This document shows, one piece after another, positions 57,864 to 58,940 of a stretch of DNA of 64,000 nucleotides (the first letter of the stretch is position 1; each line of letters begins with the position of its first letter). Location: positions 4,071,001 through 4,135,000 of the forward strand of contig NZ_OY776414.1 of assembly GCF_963675585.1 (NCBI RefSeq), read 5' to 3'. The translations under genes were made by a program, and so were the position numbers. Source of the stretch: an uncultured Draconibacterium sp. (lineage in GTDB: Bacteria; Bacteroidota; Bacteroidia; Bacteroidales; Prolixibacteraceae). The notes beneath the pieces are model-generated. The model saw nothing but the letters and a program-made list of their open reading frames with translations. It was not told the origin of the DNA and made no database searches.

Positions 57864-57922
57864 GTGGACTGTACTGGATTCGAACCATCCGTCAGCTGAC
57901 GGACTAAACCAACTGAGCTAAT
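57864..57922 (-). pseudogene. tRNA-derived remnant, distal end of the GIY-YIG array
   Basis: On the minus strand it reads ATTAGCTCAGTTGG, TTTAGTCCGTCAGCTGACGG (a palindrome replacing the anticodon arm), GGTTCGAATCC (T-arm) and AGTACAGTCCACA. The 3' end differs from the other two remnants, which end ATGTCCCACCA. Confidence 0.75.
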
Positions 57923-58163
57923 CTGCAAGCAAACGCCTTATGAAATCTCTTCCTCTGGAGGACTTCAACTGCCTTTCTCTGGCCGGTGCTTCCGTTTTTG
58001 TTTGACATGCTTCGGTGTAAACTAATTTCCAGGGCTGATACTTACTTGTCCAACCAGTATTACACTCATCGTTATGAGAAGCCAAACGCTTTTCAACATC
58101 AGAACTAAAACCGATATATATTTTATCAAATGCTTTGGAGTATAGCACGTAAACAGAAAACAT
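57918..58163 (-). CDS. GIY-YIG nuclease domain protein, array copy 3 (distal)
   Basis: This 81-residue protein is a single GIY-YIG domain: VYVLYSKAF and DKIYIGFSSDVEKRLASHN (the two strands and the catalytic Arg), and KTEAPARERQLKSSRG (Glu region and basic helix). Copy 3 differs from copies 1 and 2 at a few residues (V/A6, C34 for R, P for L in TEAPARER). Its last codons run into tRNA-like sequence, so the stop codon (TAG) lies in a D-arm-like sequence. The start ATG lies 17 bp after the CCA of the preceding tRNA-like unit. Confidence 0.85.
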   Translation of the reverse strand: MFSVYVLYSKAFDKIYIGFSSDVEKRLASHNDECNTGWTSKYQPWKLVYTEACQTKTEAPARERQLKSSRGRDFIRRLLAD

Positions 58164-58180
58164 AATTCGAAGGTGAGAAA

Positions 58181-58267
58181 TGGTGGGACATACTGGATTC
58201 GAACCATCCGTCTATCGACGGATACCCTGTCATCCGTCAGCTGACGGACTAAACCAACTGAGCTAAT
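58181..58267 (-). pseudogene. tRNA-derived remnant between GIY-YIG copies 2 and 3
   Basis: Minus strand: ATTAGCTCAGTTGG, palindrome TCCGTCAGCTGACGGA, GACAGGGTA, a second hairpin ATCCGTC-GATA-GACGGAT, GGTTCGAATCCAGT, ATGTCCCACCA. The 3' half copies tRNA-Val. The 5' acceptor arm does not pair with ATGTCCC, so a functional tRNA is unlikely. Confidence 0.85.
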
Positions 58268-58508
58268 CTGCAAGCAAACGCCTTATAAAATCTCTTCCTC
58301 TGGAGGACTTCAACTGCCTTTCTCTGGCCAGTGCTTCCGTTTTTGTTTGACATGCTTCGGTGTAAACTAATTTCCAGGGCTGATACTTACTTGTCCAACC
58401 AGTATTACGCTCATCGTTATGAGAAGCCAAACGCTTTTCAACATCAGAACTAAAACCGATGTATATTTTATCAAATGCTTTGGAGTAGAGGGCGTAAACA
58501 GAAAACAT
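58263..58508 (-). CDS. GIY-YIG nuclease domain protein, array copy 2
   Basis: This 81-residue GIY-YIG domain is nearly identical to copy 1 (one residue differs near position 13). An ATG at 58610 would extend it through the tRNA-like remnant (QISSVGLVRQLTDDRVEV), which is clearly tRNA sequence read as protein, so the ATG at 58508 is chosen. That ATG lies 17 bp after the CCA of the remnant, exactly as for copies 1 and 3. Confidence 0.87.
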   Translation of the reverse strand: MFSVYALYSKAFDKIYIGFSSDVEKRLASHNDERNTGWTSKYQPWKLVYTEACQTKTEALARERQLKSSRGRDFIRRLLAD

Positions 58509-58525
58509 AATTCGAAGGTGAGAAA

Positions 58526-58604
58526 TGGTGGGACATACTGGATTCGAACCAGTGACTTCTACCCTGTCATCCGTCAGCTGACGGACTAATCCAACTGAGC
58601 TAAT
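58526..58604 (-). pseudogene. tRNA-derived remnant between GIY-YIG copies 1 and 2
   Basis: Minus strand: ATTAGCTCAGTTGG, palindrome TCCGTCAGCTGACGGA, then GACAGGGTAGAAGTCACTGG, TTCGAATCCAGT and ATGTCCCACCA, identical to the 3' half of the adjacent tRNA-Val. The 5' acceptor strand does not match. Confidence 0.87.
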
Positions 58605-58845
58605 CTGCAAGCAAACGCCTTATAAAATCTCTTCCTCTGGAGGACTTCAACTGCCTTTCTCTGGCCAGTGCTTCCGTTTTTGTTTGACATGCTTCGGTGT
58701 AAACTAATTTCCAGGGCTGATACTTACTTGTCCAACCAGTATTACGCTCATCGTTATGAGAAGCCAAACGCTTTTCAACATCAGAACTAAAACCGATGTA
58801 TATTTTATTAAATGCTTTGGAGTAGAGGGCGTAAACAGAAAACAT
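58600..58845 (-). CDS. GIY-YIG nuclease domain protein, array copy 1 (next to tRNA-Val)
   Basis: This 81-residue GIY-YIG domain (MFSVYALYSKAFNKIYIGFS, RLASHNDERNTGW, TKTEALARERQLKSSRGRDF) begins 17 bp after the CCA end of tRNA-Val(GAC) on the same strand. The frame stays open back through the tRNA to 59076, but that part is tRNA read as protein. Members of this small family (YhbQ-like) cleave or nick DNA. Placement suggests transcription from the tRNA promoter, with the mRNA released by tRNA 3' processing (inference). Confidence 0.87.
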   Translation of the reverse strand: MFSVYALYSKAFNKIYIGFSSDVEKRLASHNDERNTGWTSKYQPWKLVYTEACQTKTEALARERQLKSSRGRDFIRRLLAD

Positions 58846-58862
58846 AATTCGAAGGTGAGAAA

Positions 58863-58940
58863 TGGTGGGACATACTGGATTCGAACCAGTGACTTCTACC
58901 CTGTCAAGGTAACACTCTAAACCAACTGAGTTAATGTCCC
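58863..58940 (-). tRNA. tRNA-Val (anticodon GAC)
   Basis: The cloverleaf is complete: acceptor GGGACAT/ATGTCCC, D-arm ACTC-AGTTGGTTTA-GAGT, anticodon arm TTACC-TTGACAG-GGTAG (anticodon GAC), T-arm ACTGG-TTCGAAT-CCAGT, discriminator A and encoded CCA. It is the only intact tRNA in the window. Three GIY-YIG genes and three tRNA-derived remnants follow on the same strand. Confidence 0.96.

Follow-up and report, generated by a model that had tools for sequence, protein, structure and literature searches.

We analysed a stretch of 64,000 nucleotides from an uncultured Draconibacterium sp. (Bacteroidota; contig NZ_OY776414.1, positions 4,071,001 to 4,135,000), hereafter the window, which carries, entirely on its minus strand, an array composed of a tRNA-Val(GAC) gene followed by three GIY-YIG nuclease genes, each with a tRNA remnant behind it. 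The tRNA is the single one called by ARAGORN in the whole window, and the three nuclease copies pass the Pfam cut-off for PF01541 (22.6 bits) with scores of 60.5-64.4 bits. Read along the minus strand, the array has the following features:

58863..58940, minus strand: intact tRNA-Val(GAC) (ARAGORN)
58846..58862, minus strand: 17-bp leader, from the CCA to the first ATG (sequence)
58600..58845, minus strand: GIY-YIG nuclease copy 1, 81 residues (PF01541, 64.4 bits; AlphaFold model, pLDDT 97)
58526..58605, minus strand: tRNA remnant 1, from D-arm to CCA, with 10 nt of the anticodon side replaced (sequence)
58570..58585, no strand: palindrome TCCGTCAGCTGACGGA of remnant 1 (sequence, motif scan)
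58509-58525 and 58164-58180, minus strand: repeats of the leader ahead of copies 2 and 3 (sequence)
58263..58508, minus strand: GIY-YIG nuclease copy 2, 81 residues (PF01541, 63.2 bits)
58181..58268, minus strand: tRNA remnant 2, with two palindromes (sequence)
58233..58248, no strand: palindrome TCCGTCAGCTGACGGA of remnant 2 (sequence, motif scan)
58207..58222, no strand: second palindrome of remnant 2, TCCGTCGATAGACGGA as read on the minus strand, in the interval between anticodon arm and T loop (sequence)
57918..58163, minus strand: GIY-YIG nuclease copy 3, 81 residues (PF01541, 60.5 bits)
57864..57923, minus strand: terminal tRNA remnant 3 (sequence)
57888..57903, no strand: palindrome TCCGTCAGCTGACGGA of remnant 3 (sequence, motif scan)

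The nuclease reading frames start 345 and 337 bp apart; compared over 300 nt, the other two copies show 95% and 99% identity to the middle copy. Each ATG follows a CCA after 17 bases (TTTCTCACCTTCGAATT), and the TAG stop of each frame is at the same time the TAG within a tRNA D-arm (GATTAGCTCAG) that leads into the remnant. Remnants 1 and 2 share the 3' end ATGTCCCACCA, while remnant 3 ends in ACAGTCCACA. A preliminary description of this DNA had reported the tRNA, the three 81-residue genes in units of 337 and 345 bp, the 17-bp spacing, the stops inside D-arm sequence and the common 3' end of the first two remnants, all of which we confirm. It had overlooked that every remnant carries a 16-bp palindrome of the form TCCGYC-N4-GRCGGA. 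In remnants 1 and 2, ten nucleotides of the intact tRNA beside the anticodon loop (AGTGTTACCT) are exchanged for TCCGTCAGCTGACGGA; remnant 3 has the same palindrome with a shorter sequence behind it and more missing, and remnant 2 alone holds a second palindrome. A tRNA-Val piece of another genome (G018), which also carries the palindrome, shares 97.4% identity with remnant 1 over 77 nt. In the internal remnants a 5' part with the palindrome is fused, at or close to the anticodon loop, with the 3' part of the present tRNA, in agreement with recombination after a break there. No terminator was seen by eye in the interval between CCA and ATG, and scanning for promoters yielded no useful signal. 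The array is unlikely to be an artefact of assembly, because the copies differ from one another and relatives hold versions with one or two copies.

The sole protein of the array is, as judged by profile and fold, a small GIY-YIG nuclease of the SLX1/UPF0213 type. The nearest structures in a profile search were UPF0213 and SLX1, and in a fold search with the AlphaFold model only UPF0213 (1zg2) reached an E value of 0.001, followed by SLX1 (0.0025 and up) and then by the I-TevI and UvrC domains (above 0.1). The residues Y5, Y16, G18, R26 and E63 are invariant in all 18 aligned proteins, and we take them to be the catalytic Tyr, the Tyr-x-Gly, the Arg and the Glu of GIY-YIG nucleases. UPF0213 and SLX1 (PDB 1zg2, 1ywl, 6seh, 7cq2) are the closest in profile and fold, and the SLX1 entries concern branched DNA; they differ in that SLX1 acts with SLX4, and nothing found in this analysis links them to tRNA genes or palindromes. 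Within arrays, the ratio of nonsynonymous to synonymous change (dN/dS) is 0.25, 0.19 and 0.06 in three of five pairs of copies, and comparing D. sediminis with D. mangrovi copies gives 0.07 and 0.37; in more distant species synonymous change is saturated, with a dN of 0.18-0.33.

The history of the site was read from its alleles. The neighbouring gene atpG was searched in 37 genomes of the same genus and gave 33 matches, the window genome included; 27 regions downstream of it, drawn from the 32 matching relatives, were compared together with the window (28 in all). A tRNA-Val(GAC) gene is present in 13 of the 28 regions, each time with a permease gene and the same pair of following genes as neighbours, and the permease is 87-100% identical to that of the window except in G006 and G004 (48%). 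Five of these 13 loci carry the nuclease (three copies in the window genome, two each in G002 and G009, one each in G004 and G017) and eight do not. In six of the latter the tRNA is plain, the 140 bp before and the 260 bp after it being free of tRNA pieces; in the remaining two, G006 and G007, a dead, palindrome-bearing 5' tRNA piece lies upstream of the intact tRNA, so that they look like what is expected after loss of the nuclease. As for a homing endonuclease, the gene is present in some alleles, absent from others (five with and eight without), and sits inside its target. The preliminary description had named the same arrangement by vertical descent, with no empty sites, as the outcome that would speak against it; empty sites were found and that outcome was not seen. 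Its proposal of a minimal tRNA-targeting element gains support from these alternative alleles at one locus in one genus, and from the phylum-wide link to tRNA genes described below.

The allele of G002 is the most informative. It consists, in order, of native upstream sequence, the 5' part of the native tRNA with a palindrome, a different intact tRNA-Val, a nuclease gene, a remnant, a second nuclease gene, the 3' part of the native tRNA and native downstream sequence. The intact tRNA of this allele shares its anticodon with the empty-site tRNA of G012, from which it departs at 25 of 76 positions, with changes matched across stems. The terminal remnant differs from the native 3' part at only 1 of 42 positions as against 16 of 42 from the intact tRNA of the same allele, and G009 is alike; the left remnant differs at 3 of 24 positions from the empty-site tRNA and at 7 of 24 from its own intact tRNA. 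Since the intact tRNA is foreign and the last remnant native, a nuclease-plus-tRNA cassette lies inside the native gene. Native halves are found on both sides in G002 and G009, and the left half alone in G004 and G017. Compared with the same G012 gene, the intact tRNA of G004 differs at 18 of 76 positions and that of the window at 9 of 76, including paired acceptor-stem changes (2/73 and 4/71). The 3' end of window remnant 3, ACAGTCC, comes from a tRNA-Val other than the intact one of the window; it pairs with GGACTGT, found in the dead 5' piece upstream of the G007 tRNA, and an intact tRNA-Val with the GGACTGT/ACAGTCC ends exists in G081. The ends of remnant 3, the G007 piece and the mosaic of G002 together imply that several tRNA-Val genes succeeded one another at this site.

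Searching with four proteins of the Val type showed that the association recurs; the best 80 of 109 related places, mostly in Bacteroidota and a few in genomes labelled as other phyla, were taken as homologous loci. ARAGORN calls a tRNA within 400 bp in 65 of the 80, always on the same strand, as against 78 of 3,926 control positions. The nearest tRNA of these 65 is Val(GAC) or Met(CAT), except at L217 (Asn); the call at L178 is itself a palindrome-bearing Val piece. Of the 15 loci lacking a call, ten are cut off by a contig end no more than 300 bp upstream of their first copy, and one of these 15 (L177) has tRNA-like pieces behind the copies according to Rfam. The Met targets include genes that we take to be initiator-like and elongator-like, with TCATAACCC common to both. 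Where a tRNA lies upstream, the downstream remnant scores better than the best of 20 shuffles at 51 of 62 loci, counting as misses L190 and L225, which were scored against a more distant tRNA-Arg. The remnants begin in the D or the anticodon arm, with no single fixed point.

The link extends to other nuclease clades. In a sample of 31 genomes we found 141 PF01541 matches and kept 99, dropping short fragments as well as UvrC-sized and other long frames; tRNAs or tRNA pieces accompany 60 of the 99 (one member of a His array counted by its array only) and not the other 39. The tRNAs used are Val(GAC), Val(TAC), Met, Asp, Gly, Pro, Ala, Ser, Phe, Gln, Arg, Asn, Leu, Thr and His, and the layout of some loci (Pro, Arg) is mirrored, the intact tRNA standing downstream of the nuclease gene and a 5' remnant of a tRNA upstream of it. 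ARAGORN calls of Lys(ttt), Cys(gca), Stop(tta), Phe(aaa) and unassigned type near some of the copies are palindrome-bearing pieces of Val(TAC) type. In these counts related genomes have full weight and tandem copies are counted separately. Target labels cluster on the protein tree, with 45 changes and 16 groups as against a mean of 82 changes on shuffling and none of 200 shuffles as low, for a tree that has few columns and many open forks and in which several tandem copies labelled as having no target inflate the changes. By eye, a terminator-like hairpin stands between tRNA and reading frame at the Gly, His, Asp, Ala and some Met loci, and the earlier suggestion that the nuclease gene borrows the promoter and 3' processing of the tRNA is not supported as a general rule.

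The palindrome is tied to the nuclease as well. Palindromes that start with TCCG and have six paired positions occur between -20 and +120 of the stop codon in 60 of 87 nuclease copies, as against 14 in 338,457 bp of the same contigs. Among 55 16-mers of the form TCCG-N8-CGGA close to the nuclease genes, complementarity holds at the four inner pairs in 52, 55, 33 and 36 cases, as against 11, 10, 4 and 3 in the 13 background sites, so the palindromic form persists through changes of its letters. The palindrome stands immediately after TCATA at 24 of 44 Met loci and immediately before TGACA at 7 of 14 Val loci, and the length it replaces is exactly 10 nt in 20 of those 24 Met loci (the other four gave no 6-nt match) and all seven Val loci, 27 of 31 jointly. 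A palindrome is also found within 80 bp upstream of the intact tRNA at 22 of 56 loci. Its type mostly tracks the nuclease clade and not the tRNA: TCCGYC is common to the Val(GAC) and Met loci of one clade and TGCTGAC to the Asp-A and two Gly loci of another, while palindromes differ between Val(TAC) and Val(GAC), between two Met loci of another clade and the main Met group, and between Asp-B and Asp-A. This link is incomplete, as a TCCCGA type is common to His, Val(TAC) and some other loci, and the Pro, Ser and window-genome Gly loci fit none of the patterns; since the same loci had been read before the patterns were defined, the assignment is descriptive and no independent test. That the palindrome acts either as the cognate site of the nuclease or as a lock on its target is in our judgement about as likely as not.

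In the genome of the window (G000) the motif occurs at 22 sites, five of them at nuclease-tRNA loci, and the reversed pattern at none. A dispersed palindrome linked to an enzyme gene, as in repetitive extragenic palindromes (REPs) and their associated tyrosine transposases (RAYTs), is thus found here too (22 sites in this genome; 60 of 87 copies). At one of the sites (L289, C4:756886) a tRNA-like stretch bears, by eye, the 16-bp palindrome at the would-be anticodon arm; no nuclease gene is present in the 321 bp inspected, and Rfam gave no tRNA match at E values up to 1.

The same genome (6.03 Mb) has 17 PF01541 matches, one UvrC-sized frame among them. Besides the present array and the single gene at L011 (below), they include six tandem copies behind a tRNA-His (C4:3732268-3734920; L173, L004-L009) with steps of 446-447 bp, three copies behind a tRNA-Gly with steps of 435-436 bp, one gene before a tRNA-Pro in mirrored layout, and two genes free of a tRNA beside palindromic repeats. 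The gene of the His array is a different one, of 86 residues with identical proteins throughout, and behind each copy comes a tRNA-His piece whose T-arm is replaced by a palindrome. At L011 (C4:3181861-3182846) Val(TAC)-like tRNA pieces have their anticodon arms replaced by TCCCGATTTAAATCGGGA, and the adjoining GIY-YIG frame is devoid of its first residues. Small tRNA-free GIY-YIG genes of about 95-110 residues (for example L010, L016, L132, L136, L130, L121 and L037) lie mostly between the inverted arms of larger palindromic repeats, and five such clades go with five repeat types (9 of 9, 4 of 5, 5 of 6, 3 of 4 and 5 of 5, by patterns defined post hoc). Another clade is found, by eye, at or inside protein genes (L137, L154, L052, L163, L127); at L137, L154 and L052, which presumably hold dTDP-glucose dehydratase-like and CysC-like genes, a copy of the first codons of the downstream gene appears upstream of the GIY-YIG gene, and at L137 the differences between this copy and the intact gene are mostly synonymous, the pattern expected of a recoded rescue copy. 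This gene-start class rests on reading by eye, and a badly written pattern for it matched none of seven loci.

That the array is a mobile or selfish element of some kind is probable. On balance we favour the reading that it is a selfish, homing-like element living in tRNA genes and passing through the following cycle. The nuclease would cut the tRNA gene, a cut that we would place, with somewhat better than even confidence, near the anticodon arm. Where the broken tRNA gene is one that the cell needs, the nuclease could last only if that tRNA is restored; repair would accordingly copy in a cassette with, or leaving, an intact tRNA of the same specificity together with the nuclease gene, a product that is seen in the alleles. 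The old tRNA would persist as dead pieces on one or both sides, as observed, and a clade-linked palindrome would replace part of a tRNA arm, in the Val/Met clade the 10 nt beside the anticodon counted above. This palindrome may remove the cut site, or it may be the recognition hairpin of the nuclease itself. Tandem copies could arise by recombination through the shared tRNA parts, as for SegB of phage T6 (discussed below), and later loss of the nuclease would leave a replaced tRNA with a palindrome-bearing scar, the state that G006 and G007 resemble. Two extensions of the cycle were abandoned. Universal recoding of the rescue tRNA is clear for Val in G002 (25 of 76) and G004 (18 of 76) and is not general in the Met loci. 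Resistance through recoding of the D-stem was dropped as well: G000 and the G002 group have different compensated D-stem changes, but one of these forms recurs at tRNA-Val loci free of the nuclease.

Several observations weigh against this homing-like cycle. Cleavage, homing and the role of the palindrome are what we infer, and neither cutting nor movement was observed. No downstream tRNA remnant was found in the single-copy alleles of G004 and G017, 11 of the 62 loci with an upstream tRNA have no clear remnant, and 27 of the 87 nuclease copies lack the palindrome near their stop. In 22 of 34 testable loci (three of the 22 being arrays) the direct repeat runs past the tRNA 3' end, so that local duplication fits as well as import. 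At many Met loci the 5' side of the anticodon in the remnant is identical to that of the intact tRNA; the intact Met tRNA is thus often not recoded, and resistance of the rescue copy is not shown. The A10-U25 form of the D-stem is also present in four nuclease-free tRNA-Val loci. As single DNA strands the three window remnants fold just 0.9-2.0 standard deviations better than shuffles (z -0.9 to -2.0). As for selection, the fourth within-array pair (D. mangrovi) has a dN/dS of 0.76 on 4 changes, and the fifth, window copies 1 and 2, has one nonsynonymous change and zero synonymous ones. A tRNA-Val(GAC) was found in 26 of 296 Bacteroidota genomes by a strict pattern that may miss variants, and this patchy presence in the phylum implies that the target may be dispensable for Val. 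Relatives of the nuclease were absent from viral_contigs despite 153 pattern matches, and phages gave one weak match of 40% identity. Carriage by phage, virus or plasmid was set aside, as no vehicle was found and plasmids gave just 55-63-nt matches over the tRNA stretch of the query.

The alternative that survives best, which we nevertheless consider unlikely, is a palindrome-mobilising system in which the nuclease spreads short palindromes into hairpin-forming DNA, much as RAYTs do with REPs. Its targets would be other repeats, tRNA arms and perhaps terminators, and the tRNA loci would represent damage tolerated thanks to a spare tRNA. Such a system would agree with the tracking of nuclease clade by palindrome type, with the position of the tRNA-free clades, mostly between the arms of larger palindromic repeats, and with the surroundings of the solo palindromes in G000, 8 of 17 of which have an outer stem of at least 5 pairs as against 5.3% of 393 control positions; several of them break up a further palindromic repeat, for example GTCATGCTG...TTCAGCATC. 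However, one of the eight (L284) proved to be a native terminator, its stem covarying in relatives, and not an insertion, at least L282 and L291 also look like terminators, the motif has only its 22 sites in the window genome, and palindrome mobilisation alone leaves the foreign tRNA cassette of G002 unexplained. The view of solo palindromes as terminator insertions was therefore rejected, L284 being native, and the wider claim of entry into hairpin loops is weak at 17 sites. In REP/RAYT systems the type of enzyme goes with the type of palindrome. The likeness lies in short palindromes with a linked gene, and the difference in the enzymes, RAYTs being tyrosine (HUH) transposases and not GIY-YIG proteins; we know of no tRNA rescue copy in them. 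Identity of our nuclease with a RAYT was rejected, as its only matches are to PF01541.

A vertically inherited, domesticated nuclease that happens to lie behind tRNAs, with copies and remnants produced by ordinary unequal crossing-over, is improbable: the signs of purifying selection would suit it, and crossing-over between tRNA and remnant would leave internal remnants such as those seen, but close relatives have sites free of the gene and of any tRNA piece, a foreign tRNA lies inside native halves, and different clades use many tRNA types. Integrative elements at tRNAs have the classic order of intact tRNA, element and 3' tRNA piece, and this is the layout of the window; a remnant of such an element, integrated at the tRNA 3' end, as the preliminary description had entertained, and by a tyrosine recombinase, is nonetheless highly improbable, because the repeat units contain the GIY-YIG frames and one overlapping 83-codon frame with no integrase-sized frame, the remnants have variable starts and carry palindromes, and some loci are mirrored, with 5' remnants. 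A group I intron with a homing endonuclease is rejected, as the complete tRNA lies outside the nuclease gene and is not split by it.

Among known systems, a mitochondrial atp6 element of Allomyces reportedly consists of an endonuclease gene inserted with a substitute gene end, with the displaced end left downstream; it differs in concerning a protein gene in an organelle, and is not known to have a palindrome. The free-standing GIY-YIG homing endonuclease SegB of phages T4 and T6 is described as cutting inside phage tRNA genes and as causing tandem segmental amplification of tRNA and its own gene, for which the active site is required (PMC13096335). Both cases have a GIY-YIG gene beside tRNA genes and tandem copies of nuclease plus tRNA parts. 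SegB belongs to a phage and not to a chromosome, and its account reports no favoured tRNA isotype, with neither remnants nor palindromes mentioned in the sections on amplification and on tRNA association (PMC13096335). Searches of an open-access library of papers found no description of the tRNA, nuclease and palindrome arrangement.

Considering the family as a whole, we tentatively suggest, as a possibility short of an even chance, that these genes are phylum-wide miniature mobile elements, each comprising one SLX1-like GIY-YIG nuclease and a cognate palindrome, with targets that differ by clade, namely one of the arms (anticodon, T or D) in particular tRNA genes, larger palindromic repeats and possibly the starts of protein genes. 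The tRNA clades would then be natural cleave-and-rescue systems: each would ruin an RNA gene, provide a substitute for it and leave the palindrome as a label on the dead copy. If this is true, tRNA genes of Bacteroidota, apparently including initiator and elongator Met, would be repeatedly cut, replaced and rebuilt by homing-like elements that are among the smallest known to us, in a natural example of the cleave-and-rescue logic of synthetic gene drives. It would also account for many of the small GIY-YIG genes of Bacteroidota, and would provide around ten natural sets of nuclease, palindrome and target for working out how a bare 80-residue nuclease chooses its target. The array of the window looks like an undescribed kind of selfish gene, one that breaks and rebuilds a host RNA gene.

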